Assembly: GCA_937949545.1 (NCBI GenBank)
Contig: CALEDR010000001.1
Coordinates: 1-64,000, forward strand
DNA: 64,000 bases
DNA from: an uncultured Phycisphaerae bacterium
Lineage (GTDB): Bacteria; Planctomycetota; Phycisphaerae; Sedimentisphaerales; Anaerohalosphaeraceae
Reading direction: 5' to 3'
This document shows, piece after piece, positions 52,714-64,000 of this stretch. How positions within the stretch are numbered: position 1 is the first letter of the stretch; each line of letters opens with the position of its first letter. Made by a program: the position numbers and the translations under genes. The notes under the pieces are model-generated. The model made no database searches and had not been told where the DNA came from. It saw nothing but the letters and a program-made list of their open reading frames with translations.

Positions 52714-53886
52714 ATGGTGCTCGGCAGAAAGCTCAGGATGGGAATGGTCGGCGGGGGACCGGGAGCATTCATCGGGGAGGTTCATCGCAAGGCGGCCAGA
52801 ATGGATGGTCAAATCGAATTGGTGGGAGGAGCGTTTGATATCAAGCCTGAAAAATCCAAGCAGATGAGCAAGGTGCTTTATTTAGACCCGAAGCGCTGCT
52901 ACAGCTGCTATCAGGAAATGATCGAGGAAGAGCTGAAGCTGCCGGAGGGGGAGCGGATGGATTTTGTCGCGATTACCACGCCCAACAACTGGCATTATCC
53001 GATCGCTCGCGATTTGCTGGAGGCCGGTTTTCATGTAATGTGCGAAAAGCCGATGACGATTTCGGTTCAGGAGGCCCGCAGTCTGGTTCAGATTGTTCAA
53101 AAGACCAAGCGGGTTTTTGGGCTGATGCACAACTATACCGGCTATCCGATGGTCAAATTAGCCCGGGACATGGTTAAAAACGGCGAACTGGGCAAAATAC
53201 GCAAGATTATTGTGCAATATCCGCAGGGCTGGCTGGCCACAGCACTGGAGCGCATAGGACAGCAGCAGGCCTCTTGGCGTACCGACCCCAAGCAGAGCGG
53301 CGGAAGCGGTTGCGGCGGCGACATCGGAACCCATGCCGAGAATCTTTCGGAATACATTACGGGGCTGAAAATGACCCATTTGTGTGCGGAATTGACGACC
53401 TTTGTGAAGGGTCGGAAACTGGATGATGATGTCAACTGCCTGGTGAAATTTAACAACGGGGCCAAAGGGGTTCTCCATGCCAGCCAGATTTCCGTCGGCG
53501 AGGAAAATAACCTGGCTATCTGGATCTACGGCGAGAAGGGCGGACTCGAATGGCATCAGGAGCATCCCAACTATCTGTATGTTAAACCGATGGGCAAGCC
53601 GATGCAGGTCTGGAAGCGGGGCAATGATTACGTGGCCGCCTACAGTCCCGCCGCCGCCCGGGCGACACGTCTTCCGTTTGGGCATCCGGAGGCCTTTATC
53701 GAGGCCTTTGCCAATATTTACTGCAATTTTGCGGATACGGTCCGGGCCAGAATGGAAGGACGCAAACCGGACCCACTGGCCCTGGATTTCCCGGATGTCC
53801 ATGACGGACTTCGCGGTATGCTGTTTTTAGACACGCTTTTGGCCAGCGCGAAAAGCAGACAAAAATGGACCCCGTTTAAGAAATAG
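52714..53886 (+). CDS. Cytoplasmic Gfo/Idh/MocA oxidoreductase
   Basis: This 390 aa protein starts after AAAGGAGA. It has no signal peptide. It shows the Rossmann [16 protein letters not shown], the family motif CEKPMT, and the C-terminal [16 protein letters not shown] (the catalytic His region). It is the first gene of a nine-gene run. It is followed 17 bp later by a TIM-barrel isomerase, a pairing common in inositol or keto-sugar catabolism. The substrate is unknown. Confidence 0.93.
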
Positions 53887-53903
53887 AACAGGAGAGCGGA
53901 CCT

Positions 53904-54899
53904 ATGGCACGAGCGGTGACGATTTTCACGGGACAGTGGGCGGATTTGCCGCTGGAAAAACTGGCTGAAATTATGGCTGGGTTTGGGTATGACGGTTTGG
54001 AACTGGCCTGCTGGGGCGACCATCTGGATGTCTGGAAGGCAGCGGAGGACAAATCCTACTGCAAAAAACAGAGGGCCGTCCTTGAAAAACACAAACTGCA
54101 GCTGTTTGCCATCAGCAACCATTTGGCGGGCCAGCTGGTTTGCGACCTGAACAATGACAGCCGTTCCGATGCTTTTGCTCCGGCGGACTGTGCGGGCAGT
54201 CCGGAAAAGAAACGGGCCTGGGCGATCGAGACGATGAAGAAAACCGCCAAAGCCGCTCAAAATATGGGCGTAAAAGTGGTCAACGGCTTTACGGGCTCAT
54301 CAATTTGGCATTTGCTGTACAGCTTCCCGCCCGTTACGGAACAAATGATTGAGGACGGCTTCAAATATTTTGCCAAAATGTGGAATCCGATTCTGGATGA
54401 ATTTGACAAATGCGGGGTGAAGTTTGCCCTCGAAGTGCACCCGACCGAAATCGCCTTCGACATTTACACAGCCAAGCGGGCCCTGGAGGCAATCGGCCAT
54501 CGGGAGACATTCGGATTCAACTTTGACCCCAGTCATCTCCACTGGCAGATGGTCAATCCGGTTTGCTTCCTGAAGGAGTTCGGCGACCGGATTTATCATG
54601 TCCATATGAAGGATGCAGCCCTGCAGCTGGACGGCCGAAGCGGCATTCTCGGCTCGCATCTGAATTTCGGAGACCCGCGGCGGGGATGGGATTTCCGTTC
54701 ACTGGGGCATGGCGGTATCAATTTTGAGGAAATTATCCGCACGCTCAACCAAATCGGCTACCAGGGGCCGCTGTCCGTCGAATGGGAGGACAGCGGGATG
54801 GATCGAATGCACGGGGCAAAAGAAGCGTGTGCATTTGTGAAAAAGATCGATTTTGCCCCTTCGAAGGTGGCCTTTGATGCGGCCTTCGACCGGGCCTGA
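53904..54899 (+). CDS. Sugar phosphate isomerase/epimerase (AP endonuclease 2-like TIM barrel)
   Basis: This 331 aa protein starts after AGGAGAG. There is no signal peptide. It has the xylose isomerase-like TIM barrel with metal ligand sites Glu in LEVHP, Asp in NFDPSHLHW, His in HVHMKDA and Glu in SVEWED. Such proteins epimerise, isomerise or hydrate keto sugars. With the cytoplasmic Gfo/Idh upstream it likely forms the intracellular step of the pathway. Confidence 0.92.
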
Positions 54900-54923
54900 G
54901 TGGGCACAAGCAGAAAGGATTTT

Positions 54924-56237
54924 ATGAGCGGTTCTGCCATAAACCGCCGGGACTTTCTCCGGAATGCGGGGATAGCGGCGGCGGGGGTGATGGGTTTTCC
55001 TTACTGGATATGTCCGTCTGCACTGGGGCGTCAGGGGGCTGTTTCACCCGGCAATCGAATTACCGTCGGCTGTGTGGGAATGGGCTGGCAGGGCGAGGCC
55101 AACCTGCGGGCGTTTCTGGCCGAACCCGATGCCCGGGTTGTTGCCGTCTGCGATATCGACCGGAATCATCTTGAGCAGGCCCGAAAACAGGTGAATCGGT
55201 ACTACGACAACGAAGACTGCAAAACCTATACAGATTATCGCGAAATGATGGCTGACCCAACTATTGATGCCGTGATGCTGGCTCTGCCGGACCATTGGCA
55301 TGCGCTGGTTGCCGTGGCCGCCGCCCGTGCCGGCAAGGATATTTACGGCGAAAAACCCCTCACGCACACCCTCCGGGAAGGGCGGATTCTCTGCGATACG
55401 GTGCAGCGGTACGGTGTCATCTGGCAGACGGGCAGCTGGCAGCGTGCGGAATCGAATTTTCGTTTTGCCTGTGAACTGATACGAAACGGCCGTATCGGCA
55501 GGATCCATACGGTTGAAGTGGGACTGCCGTCCGGTCACCGGGATTTCGCCGGTACCCAGGGACAGGAAACAATGGGTCCGCCTCCGCCGGAGCTGGATTA
55601 TGAAACCTGGCTGGGGCCTGCTCCGTGGGCTCCGTATTGTCCGGCCCGCGTTCATAAAAACTGGCGATGGATTTATGACTACGGCGGCGGGCAATTGATG
55701 GACTGGGTCGGTCATCACGTGGACATCGCACATTGGGGGCTGAATCTGGACCATGCATCACCGGTTGAAATCGAGGGCAGCGGCGAGTTTCCCAAAGATG
55801 GGTTGTGGAATACGGCTACCCGCTATCGTCTCGCTGCCAAATATGCAGAAGGATTTGAGATGATTATTGCCGGCGGCCATGATGACATCCGCGGAGGGAC
55901 CCGGTGGATTGGAACGGACGGCTGGGTCTGGGTGACTCGGGGGCAGCTGGATGCCCATCCGAAACGTCTGCTGCAGGAACGATTCGGTGCTTCGGAAGTG
56001 CATCTGCCTCGGGCGGCCAATCATGTCCGCAATTTTCTGGACTGTGTCAAAAGCCGGCGGCAAACGCTGGCCCCCTGTGAAACCGCGCATCGTTCGGCCA
56101 CCCCCGGCCATTTGGGGCAGGTGGCGATGCTTTTGGGAAGAAAAATTCATTTTGACCCAAAGACGGAGAAGATATTGAATGATGAAACCGCCGACCATAT
56201 GCTCAGTCATTCGTATCGAAGCCCATGGTCGCTTTAA
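54924..56237 (+). CDS. Tat-exported Gfo/Idh/MocA oxidoreductase, tandem paralogue A
   Basis: This 437 aa protein starts at ATG 54924 with AAAGGA five bases ahead. The Tat signal is NRRDFLRNAGIAAAGVMG. It has the Rossmann GCVGMGWQGEANL, GEKPLTHT, and the C-terminal GGGQLMDWVGHHVDIAHWG. It is closely related to the next gene, with which it shares long stretches around residues 190-290. It should be exported folded with bound NAD(P). Confidence 0.93.
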   Translation: MSGSAINRRDFLRNAGIAAAGVMGFPYWICPSALGRQGAVSPGNRITVGCVGMGWQGEANLRAFLAEPDARVVAVCDIDRNHLEQARKQVNRYYDNEDCKTYTDYREMMADPTIDAVMLALPDHWHALVAVAAARAGKDIYGEKPLTHTLREGRILCDTVQRYGVIWQTGSWQRAESNFRFACELIRNGRIGRIHTVEVGLPSGHRDFAGTQGQETMGPPPPELDYETWLGPAPWAPYCPARVHKNWRWIYDYGGGQLMDWVGHHVDIAHWGLNLDHASPVEIEGSGEFPKDGLWNTATRYRLAAKYAEGFEMIIAGGHDDIRGGTRWIGTDGWVWVTRGQLDAHPKRLLQERFGASEVHLPRAANHVRNFLDCVKSRRQTLAPCETAHRSATPGHLGQVAMLLGRKIHFDPKTEKILNDETADHMLSHSYRSPWSL

Positions 56238-56249
56238 GGGCAATCGAAG

Positions 56250-57572
56250 ATGAAAGAGTCGAAGACGTTCAGTCGAAGAGAGTTTCTGAAGAGCTGCGGA
56301 GCCGCGGCGAGTCTGGCAGCATTCCCTTATGTAATTCGTCCTTCCGCCCTCGGCAAGTTCGGCACCGTGGCCCCGAGCAACCGAATTGCGATGGGGGTTA
56401 TCGGATGCGGGGCCATGGGCACCGGGAATACCCAAACGTTTCTCTACAATTTTCCGCAAGTGCAGTTTGTCGCGGTCTGTGATGTGGATTTGCGGCGTGC
56501 CCGAACCCTCAAGGAAGAAGTCGACCGCAAGTATGGAAATGAAGATTGCGTGGTGTACAGCGATTTTCGCCGTCTGATCGCCCGCGGAGATTTGGATGCC
56601 GTCTGTCATGCCGTACCCGACCATTGGCATGCGCCGATTTCAATTGCGTGCGCGCAGGCCGGTTTGGATATGTATGGAGAAAAGCCGCTGGCTCGGACGA
56701 TTCAGGAAGGGCGCGCGATTTGTGAGGCGGTCCGGCGGTACGAGGTCATCTGGCAGACCGGCAGCTGGCAGCGCTCCCTGGCCAATTTTCATCGAGCCTG
56801 TGAGCTGGTCCGAAACGGCCGCATCGGCAAGGTCTCGTATGTTGAAGTCGGTCTGCCGGATGGAAACCCCAACAGCCCTTCTTTCCGCCCCTTGCCTGTG
56901 CCGAACGGATTTGATTATGAGATGTGGCTGGGACCGGCTCCCTGGCGGCCCTATCAGGATTTCGGCCACGGCAGCGTTCACTGGGACTGGCGCTGGATTA
57001 TGGACTATTCCGGCGGGCAGTTAACCGACTGGGCGGGACATCACATTGATATTGCCCATTGGGGACTTGGGTTGGACCTGACAGGTCCCTGTGAGGTCGA
57101 AGGGCAGGGCAAATACTATCAGGACGGCATTTATGATACCCCCTACGAATACGAATTCGTCTGCCGATACGAGAACGGCTTGCAGATGAAGGTGGCCAAT
57201 GCCTCCCGCCTGCCCAAAGGGATGGGAACAACCTGGTACGGCGAGCACGGCTGGATACACGTGGACCGCGGCGATGTGCTGGAGGCATCCGAACCAAAGA
57301 TTCTTCGGGAAAAAATCGGCCCCAACGAAATCCGTCTGTTTTTCAGCCCTTCCGGACATCACGGCAATTTTATTGACTGCATCAAAAGCCGGGGCAGGAC
57401 GGCGGCACCGGCGGAAATTGCACACCGCTCGATTACCGTCGGCCTCTTGGGGGAGATTGCGATGCTTCTGGGGCGCAAAATCAAATGGGACCCCAAAACG
57501 GAAACGATTTTGAATGACCCGCAGGCCTCTCGTCTGCTCGGCCGGTCAATGAGAAGTCCTTGGCATCTGTAG
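56250..57572 (+). CDS. Tat-exported Gfo/Idh/MocA oxidoreductase, tandem paralogue B
   Basis: This 440 aa protein starts at 56250 with AAGGG upstream. The Tat signal is FSRREFLKSCGAAASLAAF. It has the Rossmann GVIGCGAMGTGNT, GEKPLART, and GGQLTDWAGHHIDIAHWGLG. It lies 12 bp after its paralogue, which suggests tandem duplication followed by substrate divergence. The substrate is unknown. Confidence 0.93.
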   Translation: MKESKTFSRREFLKSCGAAASLAAFPYVIRPSALGKFGTVAPSNRIAMGVIGCGAMGTGNTQTFLYNFPQVQFVAVCDVDLRRARTLKEEVDRKYGNEDCVVYSDFRRLIARGDLDAVCHAVPDHWHAPISIACAQAGLDMYGEKPLARTIQEGRAICEAVRRYEVIWQTGSWQRSLANFHRACELVRNGRIGKVSYVEVGLPDGNPNSPSFRPLPVPNGFDYEMWLGPAPWRPYQDFGHGSVHWDWRWIMDYSGGQLTDWAGHHIDIAHWGLGLDLTGPCEVEGQGKYYQDGIYDTPYEYEFVCRYENGLQMKVANASRLPKGMGTTWYGEHGWIHVDRGDVLEASEPKILREKIGPNEIRLFFSPSGHHGNFIDCIKSRGRTAAPAEIAHRSITVGLLGEIAMLLGRKIKWDPKTETILNDPQASRLLGRSMRSPWHL

Positions 57573-57587
57573 AAAGGAATGAATCCT

Positions 57588-59657
57588 ATGAGAAAAAGTT
57601 TCTGGATGCTGTTTTTCGGAATTCTGGCTGGTCTGTCGAATGTGAGCAGGAGTGCCTCGCTGGATGCCGCGGGGCTTCGAACCCTTCTGGAGCAGTCTGG
57701 GCAGTATGACTTCGGTCAGAGCCGCCGCGTTCTGACGGACATCGAGAATCAGATAAAAGCTGTTTATGATTCGCCGGAAGAGCTGGCCAAGGCCGAAGCG
57801 GTTTTGTTGGAGAGGCTCCAGTCGGATTGTTCATTTGCTCTGAAAGACTTTTTATGCCGGCAGCTGAGTGTTATCGGCTCGGCCCGTTCCGTTCCGGTCC
57901 TGGCGGGGCTTTTGAAAGACCCGAAGACGGCGGCGCTGGCTCAGTATGCTCTGGTTCGAATTCCTGATGCCCAGGCTGATAAAGCACTGCTGGAACATCT
58001 GGCGTCTTCGGAGACTTCTGTCCGGGTTGGGCTGCTGACGTCACTGGGGCTTCGCAGGACGAAAACGGCTGCTGAAGCGGTCGCTCCTTATGCGGCCGAT
58101 GAAAACCGGGCCGTGGCGGAGGCGGCCCTGTCGGCTCTGGGGCAAATCGGAACGCCCGAAGCCGCGGCGGCTCTCGAAAAACAGATGGAAAAGATTTTGC
58201 CGGCCTTAAAGCCCCGGGCGTACGATGTGCTGCTGGCGTGTGCGGAAAACCTGCTCCAATCAGGTCAAAAAGCGGAAGCGGCATCGCTTTTCCAGAAAGT
58301 TTATGCGAAAACGGATTTGTCCGGGCTGCTGCGTTCAGCGGCTCTGCAGGGACTTCTGCAGGCCGTTCCGCCGGAGCAGGCGGACCGTCAAATGCTGGAG
58401 GGCCTCGAGAGCGAAGATGCCCAGATTCGGACGGTCTGTCTGCTGTGGGCCTGTCGGCTGAATCGACCGGCTGTCATTCAGAAAGTCCGACAAATGATGT
58501 CTTCTTTGCCGGAATGGCAGCAAGTGCAGTTTTTGACGGCTTTGGGCGAGACAAAGTCCTCTGCCGCCAAGGAAACGGCTCTCTCTGCTCTTTCCGCTTC
58601 GTCACCGGAGGTGGTTTTGGCGGCCCTGGAAACCTTGTCGGTTGTCGGGGATGCGTCCTGTATTCAGCCCCTGGCGCAAACAGCCGCTCAATCGTCGGAA
58701 CGGCGGATTCGTCAAGCGGCTCAGACGGCACTGGAACGTCTGCCGGACCCCCAAACGGATGCGGCTGTCGCCCAATTGCTTGAAAAAATGGATTTTACGG
58801 CGGAAACCCAATCCGCCCAAACCTATGAGCTGATTCTTGCCGCCGGACGCCGAGGGACACGGGATGCCTTTCCCCTGATTCTGAAGGCCGCCTCGGTCGG
58901 CAGCCGTCCCGTCCGTCGGGTGGCAATGGAGTCTCTTGCCGCTCTGGCGGGACCGGAGGATATTCCCCGGATGACTCATCTGTTGGACAATCCGGATGCA
59001 GAGGTTGTCAGAGTGCTGGCTGCAGCGGCTTCCAAACAGGCTGAACGCACAGGCCGCGCCAAGCCGTTTTTGCCGCTGCTTGCCGGAGCCGGTCCTCAGA
59101 AAATCGCCGCCGTTTACCAAATCCTCGGACGTCTGGGCGATCCGGATTCTCTGGAGATTTTGCAAAAAGGGCTTCAGTCGGAGAATTCGGACCTTCAGGA
59201 AGCGGCTTTTCGTGCCCTGACCGAATGGCCTGGACCGGAAGTGATCGAGGACATGAAGCGATGGTCGGCGGAGGGCAAAAGCGAGTCCCGCCGTGTTCTG
59301 GCCTTTCGGGCGTATGTGAGGATGGTTCGACAGTCTAATCTGCCGATGCCGCAAAAGGCATCGACTCTGGCGGAAGCGATGGGACTGGCGCCTCGGGAAG
59401 AAGAAAAGAAAATTGTGCTGGCGTCTTTAGCAGAAGTGCCGTCAGAACAGACCCTCAAGGCTGCCGTCGGGTGCTTAACGCAGGAGTCGATTCGTCCGGA
59501 GGCCCAGGCCGCCGTCTTGGCAATTTGTCAAAGGATGTCATCTAGGCGTCCGGAGCTGTGCCGCGATGCGTTAACCGAGCTGCTCGAATCTTCTCCCCCT
59601 GAAGAAATCACCAAAACAGCTCAGGAAATGCTCAATGCGATGCAAAAATCTCGATAA
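57588..59657 (+). CDS. Exported HEAT-repeat protein
   Basis: This 689 aa protein starts at ATG 57588, with AAAGGA nine bases upstream; an alternative ATG nine bases earlier is less well placed. The signal peptide is about 1-23 (FFGILAGLSNVSRS then AS). The rest is a solenoid of roughly 15 HEAT/Armadillo helix pairs (for example AALSALGQIGTPEAAAALEKQ, SLAALAGPEDIPRMTHLLDNP). There are no enzymatic motifs; it is likely a scaffold or binding protein for the exported enzymes around it. Confidence 0.88.
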   Translation: MRKSFWMLFFGILAGLSNVSRSASLDAAGLRTLLEQSGQYDFGQSRRVLTDIENQIKAVYDSPEELAKAEAVLLERLQSDCSFALKDFLCRQLSVIGSARSVPVLAGLLKDPKTAALAQYALVRIPDAQADKALLEHLASSETSVRVGLLTSLGLRRTKTAAEAVAPYAADENRAVAEAALSALGQIGTPEAAAALEKQMEKILPALKPRAYDVLLACAENLLQSGQKAEAASLFQKVYAKTDLSGLLRSAALQGLLQAVPPEQADRQMLEGLESEDAQIRTVCLLWACRLNRPAVIQKVRQMMSSLPEWQQVQFLTALGETKSSAAKETALSALSASSPEVVLAALETLSVVGDASCIQPLAQTAAQSSERRIRQAAQTALERLPDPQTDAAVAQLLEKMDFTAETQSAQTYELILAAGRRGTRDAFPLILKAASVGSRPVRRVAMESLAALAGPEDIPRMTHLLDNPDAEVVRVLAAAASKQAERTGRAKPFLPLLAGAGPQKIAAVYQILGRLGDPDSLEILQKGLQSENSDLQEAAFRALTEWPGPEVIEDMKRWSAEGKSESRRVLAFRAYVRMVRQSNLPMPQKASTLAEAMGLAPREEEKKIVLASLAEVPSEQTLKAAVGCLTQESIRPEAQAAVLAICQRMSSRRPELCRDALTELLESSPPEEITKTAQEMLNAMQKSR

Positions 59658-59679: not shown

Positions 59680-61077
59680 ATGAAAAAACAAACAGGGTCG
59701 CTCAGCCGGCGGGATTTCCTTCGCGGAGCTGCCGGAACCGCCGCCTTTACGATTGTGCCTTCTTCGGTACTGGGTGGAGGAGCCCGCAGGTCTCCCAGTG
59801 AACGGCTGAACATAGCCGGTGTCGGCGTCGGCGGGATGGGAAAAGCCAACCTGATGGCCGTCTGCGACCCCAAAGGCGAAGACCCCTCCCGAGCGGAAAA
59901 TATTGTGGCTTTGTGTGATGTCGATGAGGCCTATGCCGCTGAGACGTTTTCCCTGTATCCGAAGGCCAAACGCTACAAAGATTTCCGCGTGATGCTTGAT
60001 GAAATGGGCGACCAAATCGATGCGGTGATTGTTGCCACACCGGACCATACGCATGCAGTGGTGGCGCTGGAGGCGATGAAACGCGGCAAACACGTGTATG
60101 TGCAGAAGCCCCTGACACGGACGGTCTATGAAGCACGCGTCTTGACCGAAGCCGCTCGGAAATACGGGGTGGTCACGCAGATGGGCAATCAGGGACACAG
60201 CGGAGAAGAAGTTCGGCTGATTTGTGAATGGATTTGGGACGGAGCCATCGGACCGGTGCGGGAGGTGCATGCCTGGACCAATCGGCCGGTCTGGCCGCAG
60301 GCCCAGGTTCGTCCGTCGGATACGCCGCCGGTGCCGTCCACGCTCGACTGGGATTTGTGGATTGGGCCGTCGCCGATGCGGCCGTATCATCCGGTTTATC
60401 ATCCCTGGGACTGGCGGTCCTGGGTGGATTTCGGCACGGGGGCTCTCGGGGATATGGCCTGTCATGTGATGGACCCGGTGTTCTGGGCTCTGAAGCTGAA
60501 ATATGCAACCAGTGTTCAGGGCAGTTTCGCCAAAATCTGCGTCGAAAAGTGGAAACATCTGGAACATCCGGAGACGTATCCGACGGCCTCCATTATTCAT
60601 TTTGAGTTTCCGGCCCGCGAGGATATGCCGCCGGTTCAGGTGCACTGGTATGACGGCGGACTTCTGCCGCCTCGTCCGGATGAACTGGAGCCGCAGCGGC
60701 GGATGGGCGACAGCAGCGGGGGGGTGATTTTTGTCGGGGACAAGGGCAAACTGATGTGCGGCTGCTATGCCAAAGGGCCGCAGCTGATTCCCTATTCAAA
60801 AATGAAGGAATACAGGCGGCCGGAACGGACGCTGCCTCGTGTCACGACAAGTCATGAAATGGACTGGGTTCGGGCCTGCAGGGAAGGCCGGCAGCCCAGT
60901 GCCAATTTTGATTATTCCGGGCCGTTTACCGAAATGGTTTTGATGGGCAATCTGGCCCTGTTCTATCCCGGGCAGAAACTGCTGTGGGACGGCGAAGCCA
61001 TGCGGGTAACCAATGTGGAAGAAGCCAATCAATATGTCCGTCAGCCTTATCGGGACGGATGGAAGCTGGAGGTATAG
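59680..61077 (+). CDS. Tat-exported Gfo/Idh/MocA oxidoreductase C
   Basis: This 465 aa protein starts at 59680 after ACGGAGA. The Tat signal is LSRRDFLRGAAGTAAF. It has the Rossmann GVGVGGMGKANL, VQKPLTRT (Gln for Glu), and the C-terminal GTGALGDMACHVMDPVFWALK, a variant of the GDxGxH region with Cys-His. It belongs to a different subfamily from the tandem pair, closer to those with a long C-terminal extension. It is followed two bases later by the fusion gene. Confidence 0.92.
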   Translation: MKKQTGSLSRRDFLRGAAGTAAFTIVPSSVLGGGARRSPSERLNIAGVGVGGMGKANLMAVCDPKGEDPSRAENIVALCDVDEAYAAETFSLYPKAKRYKDFRVMLDEMGDQIDAVIVATPDHTHAVVALEAMKRGKHVYVQKPLTRTVYEARVLTEAARKYGVVTQMGNQGHSGEEVRLICEWIWDGAIGPVREVHAWTNRPVWPQAQVRPSDTPPVPSTLDWDLWIGPSPMRPYHPVYHPWDWRSWVDFGTGALGDMACHVMDPVFWALKLKYATSVQGSFAKICVEKWKHLEHPETYPTASIIHFEFPAREDMPPVQVHWYDGGLLPPRPDELEPQRRMGDSSGGVIFVGDKGKLMCGCYAKGPQLIPYSKMKEYRRPERTLPRVTTSHEMDWVRACREGRQPSANFDYSGPFTEMVLMGNLALFYPGQKLLWDGEAMRVTNVEEANQYVRQPYRDGWKLEV

Positions 61078-61079
61078 AA

Positions 61080-62486
61080 ATGATGCGAACCATTCTCTTG
61101 TCGGCGGTCGGGTTTATGCTCAGTTTGACGGCCCAGTCGCGTTCAATGGTGATTCCGGCGGATGTCTATGAAGGCTGGCGGTTCGGGATGCAGGCCTGGA
61201 CGATGAAGGATAAGACGCTTTTTGAAACGATTGACCAGGCGGCTGCTTTGGGGCTGCGATGGCTGGAGGCCTTTCCCGGACAGCGAATCAGCCCGGAGAT
61301 TTCCGAAGGATTCGGACCGGAGATTTCTGCAGAACTGCGCGGGAAGGTTCTCGAGAAACTTCGTCAGGCCGGAATCCAAGTCAAAACCTTCGGCGTGTAC
61401 GGTTTTCCGGGCGAAGAGTCTCAAATGCGGAAAACCTTCGAATTTGCCAAGGCGATGGGGATTGAAGTGATCCTTTCCGAGCCGTCATTGGACCAATTCG
61501 AAGTGCTGGACCGGCTTGCTCAGGAATATCAGATTCGCGTGGCGATTCACAATCACCCCCAGCCGACTCGCTATTGGAATCCGGAGATTGTTTACGCGAT
61601 TTGTCAGGACCGAAGTCCCTGGATCGGTGCGGCTCCGGACATCGGCCATTGGGTGCGAAGCGGAATCGACCCGGTTGAATGGCTTCAGAAGCTGAGCGGA
61701 CGAATCTATAATGTTCATCTGAAGGAAATCGATGAGGGCAAAGATTTGATTTGGGGGCAGGGCAAAAACCGCATCGGAGCGGCTCTGGCCCAGCTGCACA
61801 AACAAGGTTATCAGGGGCCGCTCATTCTGGAATATGAAAACCACTGGCACGAGGATTACGTCCCTCAGCTGCGTCAGTGCATCGCTTTTTATACACAGGA
61901 GGCTGCCCGTTTGGCTTCCGAACGGTGGCCGAATCTCTTTCAGGATGATTTGAGCAATGCCGTTTTCAATCCCGGCAGCTGGACGTATCAGAACCGTATC
62001 CTCAGCCGCAAAGGGAAAGGAGATATCTGGACGCAGGCCAAGTACAGGGATTTTATTCTTGATTTTGATTTCAAGGTCGAGAAAAATACAAACAGCGGTG
62101 TCTTTCTGCGGGCGGCCGAACGAACGTGGCTGCCGTGGGTCGAGGTGCAGATTATGGATTCCTACGGCAGACCGGTGGACCGGCGGGATACCTGCGGAGC
62201 GATTTATGACATCCTGGCCCCGCAAAACAATCCGGTAAACCCGACCGGTCAGTGGAACCGGATGACCATTCTGGCTTCCGGTCCTATCATTCGCGTCTTT
62301 CTGAATCATCAGCCGATGATTGAAATGGACCTGCGGCAGTGGACAACCGCTCGTCAAAATCCGGATGGCTCGTCCAACAAATTTGACATTGCCTATAAAG
62401 ATTTGCCGCCGGAAGGGTACATCGGCTTTCAGGACCATGGGTTTCCTGTGGAATTTCGGAATATTAAGATTCGTGAACTCAACTGA
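61080..62486 (+). CDS. Secreted TIM-barrel isomerase fused to DUF1080 (3-keto-sugar lyase/hydrolase) domain
   Basis: This 468 aa protein starts at 61080 with GGAGG seven bases ahead. The signal peptide is about 1-20. Residues 25-275 are a xylose isomerase-like TIM barrel with Glu in LSEP, Asp in APDIGHW, His in NVHLKEID and Glu in LEYENHW. Residues 283-468 match DUF1080, the family renamed 3-keto-disaccharide hydrolase (NSGVFLRAAERTW, QIMDSYG, GQWNRMTI, YIGFQDHGFPVEFRNIKIREL). From memory of recent work, DUF1080 proteins eliminate the aglycone from 3-keto-glycosides and AP-endonuclease-2-like barrels hydrate the product, so the two steps may be joined here. Confidence 0.9.
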   Translation: MMRTILLSAVGFMLSLTAQSRSMVIPADVYEGWRFGMQAWTMKDKTLFETIDQAAALGLRWLEAFPGQRISPEISEGFGPEISAELRGKVLEKLRQAGIQVKTFGVYGFPGEESQMRKTFEFAKAMGIEVILSEPSLDQFEVLDRLAQEYQIRVAIHNHPQPTRYWNPEIVYAICQDRSPWIGAAPDIGHWVRSGIDPVEWLQKLSGRIYNVHLKEIDEGKDLIWGQGKNRIGAALAQLHKQGYQGPLILEYENHWHEDYVPQLRQCIAFYTQEAARLASERWPNLFQDDLSNAVFNPGSWTYQNRILSRKGKGDIWTQAKYRDFILDFDFKVEKNTNSGVFLRAAERTWLPWVEVQIMDSYGRPVDRRDTCGAIYDILAPQNNPVNPTGQWNRMTILASGPIIRVFLNHQPMIEMDLRQWTTARQNPDGSSNKFDIAYKDLPPEGYIGFQDHGFPVEFRNIKIRELN

Positions 62487-62506: not shown

Positions 62507-63871
62507 ATGAGTCATTCCATCAATCGAAGAGAATTCGTGAAAGCAACCGCCGCCATCGGAGCAGGACTTTTTGTTTCCGGCAAGGCGCTCGGAGCGGACG
62601 GCAAAAAAGATGTTCTTAATGTCGCCTTTATCGGAGCTGGAGCGCAGGGCCAGGCACTCCTGGATGCGGCGATTAAACTGGGACCGGAGGCGAATATCCG
62701 CATTTTGGCGATTTGCGACATCTGGGAGCAGGTCAATCTTCGGCGGGTTTCGCGGCGCGTGCAGGCCTACAAGGCCGCCTACGGTCACGAAGGCAGACCG
62801 TATGTGGATTATAAGGAAATGCTCGACAAAGAGACGGATTTGGATGCTGTCTTTATCGCCACACCTGATTTCTGGCATGCCGAACAGACGGTTGCCTGTC
62901 TGGAAAAAGGGCTTCACGTGTATTGCGAAAAGGAAATGAGCAATACGCTCGAGGGGGCTCGCCGGATGCTCGAGGCCGCCCGCCGAACCGGCAAACTGCT
63001 GCAAATCGGCCATCAGCGTCGAAGCAACCCGCGCTATCGGTACTGCTATGAGAAATACATCCAGGAAGCCAAACTGCTCGGCCGAATTACCACTGTCAAC
63101 GGCCAGTGGAATCGAAGCAAGGCCTCCTGCGAGGACCTGGACTGGCCGGCGGGCTCGGAAATCCCGGAGCCGGTGCTGAATCAGTATGGGTTCAAGAATA
63201 TGCACCAGTTCCGCAACTGGCGATGGTTTAAAGGGCTCGGCGGTGGACCGATTGTGGATCTCGGGTCTCACCAGATTGATATTTACAACTGGTTTTTGGG
63301 TACGGCTCCCCGCAGTGTGATGGCCAGCGGCGGCATAGATTACTGGAAAAACCATGAATGGTATGACAATGTGATGGCCGTCTATGAATATCAGACACCG
63401 GAAGGGCCGGTGCGGGCCTTTTATCAGACGCTCACGACCAACAGCGCCAACGGCTATTTCGAATCGTTTATGGGCCTTAAAGGAACACTCGTAATTTCCG
63501 AATCGGCCAACCGCAGCAGCGTCTATCGGGAAAGCTGGGTGCCTGAAGAAGAATGGGACCCCTGGGTTGCCAAGGGCTATCTGAAGAAGGCCGAAGGCAA
63601 ACCCGTTGTGGATAATACTCAAAAAGAAGAGGCGGTTCTGGATGTTCGGGAAGGGACCTTTGCACCGGCGGAATATAAACTGCCGGTTTCGATGAATGTT
63701 CCCTATCATCAGCCGCACATCCGCAATTTTCTGGAGGCCATTCGCGGCAACGAAAAACTTACTTGTCCGGCGGAAGTCGGCTATGAGACGGCTGTGACGG
63801 TGCTGAAAGTGAATGAGGCTGTTGAAAAAGCTTGCCGTTTGGAATTTAAACCCGAGGAGTTTTCTGTATAA
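62507..63871 (+). CDS. Tat-exported Gfo/Idh/MocA oxidoreductase D with EKE motif
   Basis: This 454 aa protein has the Tat signal INRREFVKATAAIGAG. It has the Rossmann AFIGAGAQGQALL. The family motif EKP is changed to EKE (YCEKEMSNT), while the Lys is kept. The C-terminal GGGPIVDLGSHQIDIYNWFLG carries the His region. A weak GGGAGG lies at 62489-62494, 12 bases from the ATG. It is the fourth exported oxidoreductase of the operon and precedes a further gene cut by the window end. Confidence 0.92.
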   Translation: MSHSINRREFVKATAAIGAGLFVSGKALGADGKKDVLNVAFIGAGAQGQALLDAAIKLGPEANIRILAICDIWEQVNLRRVSRRVQAYKAAYGHEGRPYVDYKEMLDKETDLDAVFIATPDFWHAEQTVACLEKGLHVYCEKEMSNTLEGARRMLEAARRTGKLLQIGHQRRSNPRYRYCYEKYIQEAKLLGRITTVNGQWNRSKASCEDLDWPAGSEIPEPVLNQYGFKNMHQFRNWRWFKGLGGGPIVDLGSHQIDIYNWFLGTAPRSVMASGGIDYWKNHEWYDNVMAVYEYQTPEGPVRAFYQTLTTNSANGYFESFMGLKGTLVISESANRSSVYRESWVPEEEWDPWVAKGYLKKAEGKPVVDNTQKEEAVLDVREGTFAPAEYKLPVSMNVPYHQPHIRNFLEAIRGNEKLTCPAEVGYETAVTVLKVNEAVEKACRLEFKPEEFSV

Positions 63872-63890
63872 TCAGCCGCCGAACGCATTT

Positions 63891-64000
63891 ATGAACAGCG
63901 ACAAGAAGCTAATTCTTATAATGCTGGCCGCAGCGGTTGTCGGAACAGCATTCGCCGCAGAACAGGGCGGGCGGCTCGGGGATAGTAATGACGCCAACCG
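63891..64000 (+). CDS. N-terminus of an exported protein, truncated by window end
   Basis: An ATG at 63891, 20 bases after the previous stop, opens a frame that stays open to the window end (36 codons). It begins with a signal peptide (KKLILIMLAAAVVGTAFA, cleavage before AEQGG). The rest is too short to identify. The ribosome-binding site is weak. Confidence 0.65.
   Translation, partial: MNSDKKLILIMLAAAVVGTAFAAEQGGRLGDSNDAN

Follow-up and report, generated by a model that had tools for sequence, protein, structure and literature searches.

The window analyzed here comprises 64,000 nt of a contig from an uncultured Phycisphaerae bacterium of the order Sedimentisphaerales. Toward its 3′ end, a single stop-free reading frame on the forward strand (61080–62486) encodes a protein of 468 amino acids in which a TIM barrel is fused to a DUF1080 domain. 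The longest mechanically called frame opens at an upstream GTG (60984). We placed the start at ATG 61080, in an ATG-ATG pair, which is preceded by a good ribosome-binding site (GGAGG) and located 3 bp past the stop codon of the preceding Gfo/Idh gene.

The first 24 residues (61080–61151) are Sec-like, with the hydrophobic stretch LLSAVGFMLSL, and probably constitute a Sec signal peptide through which the fusion protein is exported. In the AlphaFold2 model, pLDDT values below 50 were restricted to residues 1–23, and the N-termini of the orthologues are likewise hydrophobic. The TIM barrel follows as residues 25–281 (61152–61922) and the DUF1080 domain, also named 3keto-disac_hyd (3-keto-disaccharide hydrolase), as residues 282–468 (61923–62483).

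Gene arrangement around the fusion

All window genes described here are transcribed in the same direction as the fusion gene. Immediately upstream lies a gene for a Tat-exported Gfo/Idh oxidoreductase (59680–61077) resembling the glycoside 3-dehydrogenase BT2158. It reached 606 bits against the BT_2158 glycoside 3-dehydrogenase equivalog NF058561, whose cut-off is 750 bits, and is therefore a close relative without being a formal member. The fusion locus thus has the arrangement of the BT2156-BT2159 type, a Gfo/Idh 3-dehydrogenase gene beside lyase/hydratase genes. This neighbor agrees with a previous sequence-only reading of the locus, which had placed the fusion in a 3-keto-glycoside context. 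The adjacency is conserved, with a Gfo/Idh gene adjoining the fusion upstream in 47 of the 55 loci with enough flanking sequence.

Directly downstream follows a second Gfo/Idh gene with a probable Tat signal (62507–63871), assigned by domain matches; a Gfo/Idh gene occupies the downstream side in 44 of 51 loci. Next to it begins a gene for a heptaheme c-type cytochrome, of which the 5′ part lies at 63813–64000 and the remainder runs past the window (whole reading frame L034:3813-5726). It has seven CxxCH motifs and Cytochrome_C7/NrfB-like Pfam matches. A c-type cytochrome gene was found after the fusion in 35 of 44 loci, and 35 of the cytochrome homologues have exactly seven CxxCH motifs. The cytochrome gene is followed by a gene for a small multi-helix membrane protein with histidines in its helices (within L034:3813-6328), and such a gene is kept in 28 of 38 fusion loci. 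Most genomes of the order have both genes after the fusion operon. The cytochrome and the small membrane protein could provide an electron outlet for the exported Gfo/Idh dehydrogenases.

Further upstream, domain matches and neighborhood comparison identified an exported HEAT-repeat protein of 692 amino acids (57579–59657), which is often kept in the operon. It is preceded by two more Tat Gfo/Idh oxidoreductase genes (54924–56237 and 56250–57572), by a separate, unfused IolE-like AP_endonuc_2 barrel (53904–54899) and by another Gfo/Idh gene (52714–53886), the latter two without recognized export signals. Including those at 52714–57572 of the window and at L034:7537-8823, the operon encodes six Gfo/Idh proteins, several of them with Tat signals.

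Domains, fold and conserved residues

Both halves were assigned by Pfam well above the respective cut-offs. AP_endonuc_2 (PF01261) matched residues 51–257 (E 1.5e-18; 67.9 bits, cut-off 31.1) and 3keto-disac_hyd/DUF1080 (PF06439) residues 308–465 (E 2.3e-36; 126 bits, cut-off 26.8). The latter match opens at profile position 37. With phmmer, the DUF1080 half aligned to 3imm and 3s5q from residues 281–286 to its C-terminal end. Because the alignments to solved structures span each half (3p6l residues 31–275, 3imm residues 281–467), we consider both domains complete. AlphaFold2, supplied with 59 orthologues, predicted a TIM barrel with a beta sandwich C-terminal to it (pLDDT 91.8, pTM 0.87). A probable signal peptide, a full TIM barrel and a full DUF1080 domain within one chain of 468 residues, the combination claimed by the sequence-only reading, were thus borne out by Pfam, phmmer and AlphaFold2.

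We aligned 59 fusions sharing 40–95% identity with the window protein and found 41 invariant columns. The barrel residues identical in all 59 include E134, H157, H159, D187, H190, H213, K215, E251 and E253. In the DUF1080 half they are N338-S339-G340, R344, E355, Q357, N433, K440, D441, Q451 and H453. Loss of metal or active-site residues from either half had been named in the sequence-only reading as grounds for giving it up; putative residues of this kind are present in both halves and invariant throughout the 59 fusions. Compared with a 95%-identical relative, dN/dS was 0.04 for the barrel and 0.08 for the DUF1080 part, and strong purifying selection acts on both halves. A frameshift artefact was ruled out by the lack of an internal stop codon, the equal length of the homologues and dN/dS values far below 1.

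In the alignment with 8bvk, H157/N158/H159 of the barrel fall on chain residues 132–134 and H213 on residue 189. For the Agrobacterium O-glycoside beta-eliminase AtOGE, the metal ligands are His132, Asp163, His189 and, weakly, Glu233, with His134 as the catalytic base (PMC10628242). Because these numbers coincide with those of the chain, we infer that 8bvk is AtOGE. The barrel has the beta-eliminase signature of H-x-H on strand 5 (H157/H159), Asp on strand 6 (D187), His on strand 7 (H213) and Glu on strand 8 (E251), where the 8bvk alignment covers strands 5–7 and the strand 8 Glu was placed by its position in the barrel and the alignment with 3p6l and 4kw2. Sequence similarity between the barrel and AtOGE is weak (E 1.4e-5 with a profile).

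The best fold matches of the barrel were three unnamed Parabacteroides structures, followed by the C-glucosyl deglycosidase 8qrz and IolE 9zmu; DgpB-C (7drd) was also among the matches. C-glucosyl deglycosidases, IolE and DgpB-C are elimination or dehydration enzymes that act beside a keto group. For the nearest solved barrels, 3p6l, 4kw2 and 3lmz, we know of no tested function.

Foldseek matched the DUF1080 half to structures with E-values of 1e-14 to 2e-13, including 8v31 and 8tda, titled 3-keto-2-hydroxy-glucal hydratase in the PDB, and 8rr2 and 9fbe, titled 3-keto-glycoside eliminase/hydratase. The motifs NSG, E-x-Q, YD and QDHG, the last including H453, align with 8v31, giving this half both the fold and the pocket motifs of the BT2157/AL2 type. 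H453 of QDHG is a candidate match for His275, the hydration residue of the Bacteroides thetaiotaomicron enzyme.

Distribution of the fusion

Colinear matches revealed the full-length fusion in at least 61 of the 161 genomes searched from its order, which rules out a one-off fusion created during assembly. A chance joining is likewise excluded by the full-length homologues present in dozens of independent genomes. In a sample of the phylum, 7 of 392 genomes gave a full-length match, all 7 from the window's own order, and none was found in the 382 sampled genomes outside it, with the best few candidates scored per genome. When 298 genomes from the class were searched with a profile, full-length matches again came solely from the order; in the other orders the barrel and DUF1080 matched separately. 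Outside the order, the halves are thus usually separate proteins, as the sequence-only reading had held. A plasmid search returned 35 records, each of which covered less than 80% of the query.

Among the examined loci of the order, 62 have the arrangement barrel-DUF1080. Three others are DUF1080-TIM-DUF1080 (701 aa; L091:7646-9748), TIM-DUF1080-DUF1080 (720 aa; L119:4868-7027) and, at a contig edge, DUF1080-TIM (L123:1993-3279). The barrel is unfused in seven examined genomes of the order, in most of which it still neighbors BT2158-like Gfo genes, like the fusion, and some genomes have no DUF1080 at the same place in the operon. Because several genomes hold an unfused barrel at this place, the pathway does not require the fusion. 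In a tree of 100 barrels, the fusions clustered, with 8 label changes compared with a mean of 30.7 after shuffling; its backbone is open, so the tree fits a single as well as a multiple origin. The fusion is old and frequent in the order and at times absent.

The sequence-only reading had considered the fusion the strongest candidate for an undescribed enzyme architecture, unless it proved common and already characterized. It is common within its order, where it is ordinary equipment; a characterized fusion was found neither in the open-access literature searched nor among PDB titles. The architecture is thus new in the sense of lacking a description in that literature, and its parts and the pathway are already known.

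Several related arrangements were observed alongside. Directly after the fusion, the genomes of one family within the order encode a protein of about 480 amino acids with two DUF1080 domains (L102:6981-8396 and similar loci, L099–L118). ThuA domains are joined to related TIM barrels in proteins of about 580–600 amino acids (L121:1546-3357 and L122:4120-5859), and a protein of 1398 amino acids combines two ThuA matches, a TIM barrel, Fib_succ_major and DUF6807 (L124:4867-9060). The genome of the window itself has another AP_endonuc_2 barrel gene, adjoined by a distant DUF1080 without QDHG and a Gfo/Idh gene (L147:6090-7774). We rejected this pair as a split copy of the fusion because its DUF1080 is of the distant, QDHG-less type.

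Proposed role and comparison with known systems

Domains, conserved residues, export signals and operon were taken from the sequence and the predicted structure, and from these we infer the reactions, the division of roles, the metals, the substrate and any channelling. A function in the 3-keto-glycoside pathway is likely. The names of the fold matches and the AtOGE residue pattern make a barrel lyase joined to a DUF1080 hydratase the simplest reading, and we favor, with slightly better than even confidence, an exported, periplasmic bifunctional 3-keto-glycoside enzyme of this kind. The Tat-exported Gfo/Idh dehydrogenase encoded at 59680–61077 would oxidize the glycoside at C3. The barrel, with its metal predicted on H157, D187, H213 and E251 and with H159 as the putative base, would take the C2 proton and eliminate the aglycone, yielding 2-hydroxy-3-keto-glucal, which the DUF1080 half would hydrate in a pocket including H453. 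This half may also eliminate alpha-configured 3-keto-glycosides. The fusion would supply lyase and hydratase in equimolar amounts and near each other, such that the reactive glucal would be hydrated close to its origin; channelling within the fusion, which the sequence-only reading had expected, is only a possibility.

The sequence-only reading had distributed the roles the other way round, with DUF1080 eliminating and the barrel hydrating the glucal. These roles are probably reversed or shared, as the barrel has the signature of the Mn-dependent beta-eliminase AtOGE and the PDB titles of solved DUF1080 homologues name a hydratase or an eliminase/hydratase. That original assignment keeps a minor but appreciable chance. 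An Agrobacterium hydratase belonging to the 3-keto-glycoside pathway is likewise a TIM barrel with Mn, which would allow the barrel to be the hydrating half, and the BT2157 structures 8rr2 and 9fbe carry the title eliminase/hydratase. The latter also speaks against our favored reading since, by analogy with BT2157, DUF1080 alone could perform both steps. Set against the original assignment are the H-x-H base pattern of the AtOGE lyase in the barrel and the hydratase titles of two DUF1080 structures, 8v31 and 8tda. The two halves might instead be lyases of opposite stereochemistry, the barrel acting on beta- and DUF1080 on alpha-3-keto-glycosides, with hydration by DUF1080 or another protein and a broad-specificity deglycosylase as the result. 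AtOGE favors beta glycosides (PMC10628242), and the eliminating lyase of B. thetaiotaomicron accepts 4-nitrophenyl-3′-keto-alpha-glucoside (PMC13273386). Glucosinolate cleavage by B. thetaiotaomicron needs BT2158 and either BT2156 or BT2157 (PMC12385236), and because either one suffices, these two represent alternative cleaving enzymes. Together with the hydration-deficient variant of the 3-keto-O-glycoside lyase that was used for elimination (PMC13273386), these interchangeable enzymes make a stereocomplementary pair a live rival. We give it about the same minor chance as the original assignment. The anomer preference is unreadable from sequence, and two successive steps would account for a fusion better than an equal dose of alternative lyases.

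Two further alternatives each assign a different role to one half. By its database name, the barrel would epimerize or isomerize the 3-keto-sugar product, in line with the AP_endonuc_2 match and weak matches to L-ribulose-5-phosphate 3-epimerase models. The NCBIfam equivalogs for this epimerase and IolE score far below their cut-offs, however (39.3 versus 317 and 26.8 versus 290 bits), and the strand 5 H-x-H fits lyases; epimerases have a Glu at this position. With a deglycosidase and a dehydratase as the nearest functionally named folds, we regard this role as very unlikely. Hardly any weight is left for the DUF1080 half as a non-catalytic, concanavalin-like sugar-binding domain that would anchor the barrel to glycans. 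Its sandwich fold, the frequent attachment of DUF1080 to other domains and the genomes without DUF1080 at this operon position would be compatible with such a role. Its dN/dS of 0.08 and the invariance of N338-S339-G340, E355, Q357 and H453 across 59 sequences, largely in common with the hydratase 8v31, argue against it.

The 3-keto-glycoside route is a recently recognized alternative to classical glycosidases, and the assignment of elimination and hydration varies by organism. By Rosetta-stone logic, a natural fusion that has persisted in an order links the families of the barrel and the sandwich to steps of a single pathway, either consecutive or paired, and the single chain offers a direct measure of the coupling between lyase and hydratase and of the retention of the reactive 2-hydroxy-3-keto-glucal. 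The fusion also marks a lineage in which this route is apparently a main periplasmic means of glycan breakdown. A far-reaching and unlikely extension is an order-specific periplasmic deglycosylation machine of mixed stereochemistry with the fusion as its core. Its two fused lyase/hydratase sites would act on glycosides of both alpha and beta configuration, and electrons from the Tat-exported Gfo/Idh enzymes would pass to the co-conserved heptaheme cytochrome and its membrane partner. If it were true, the breakage of glycosidic bonds would feed respiration directly.

Compared with known systems, the barrel shares with AtOGE the TIM fold and the pattern of metal His, catalytic His and metal Asp/His/Glu. 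AtOGE differs in being a stand-alone enzyme without DUF1080 and with weak sequence similarity to the fused barrel. BT2157 (3osd, 8tda, 8rr2, 9fbe) and AL2 of Alistipes (8v31) share the DUF1080 fold, the NSG and QDHG motifs and Gfo/Idh glycoside 3-dehydrogenase partners, but stand alone and are about 22–26% identical to the fused half. The C-glycoside deglycosidases of the CGD/CGE type (DgpB-C 7drd, 8qrz, PuCGE 7exz) also belong to the pathway and pair a TIM barrel lyase with another polypeptide or domain; here this partner is a small beta subunit instead of DUF1080, and the substrates are C-glycosides. In Parabacteroides distasonis (L145), a cluster of separate genes encodes DUF1080, Gfo, an endonuclease/exonuclease/phosphatase-family protein, another Gfo and a TIM barrel whose sequence matches 4kw2. 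This cluster contains homologues of both halves and two Gfo/Idh genes, with the TIM gene directly 3′ of a Gfo gene as at our locus, but its halves lie on two genes. It is the split counterpart expected for a functional fusion.
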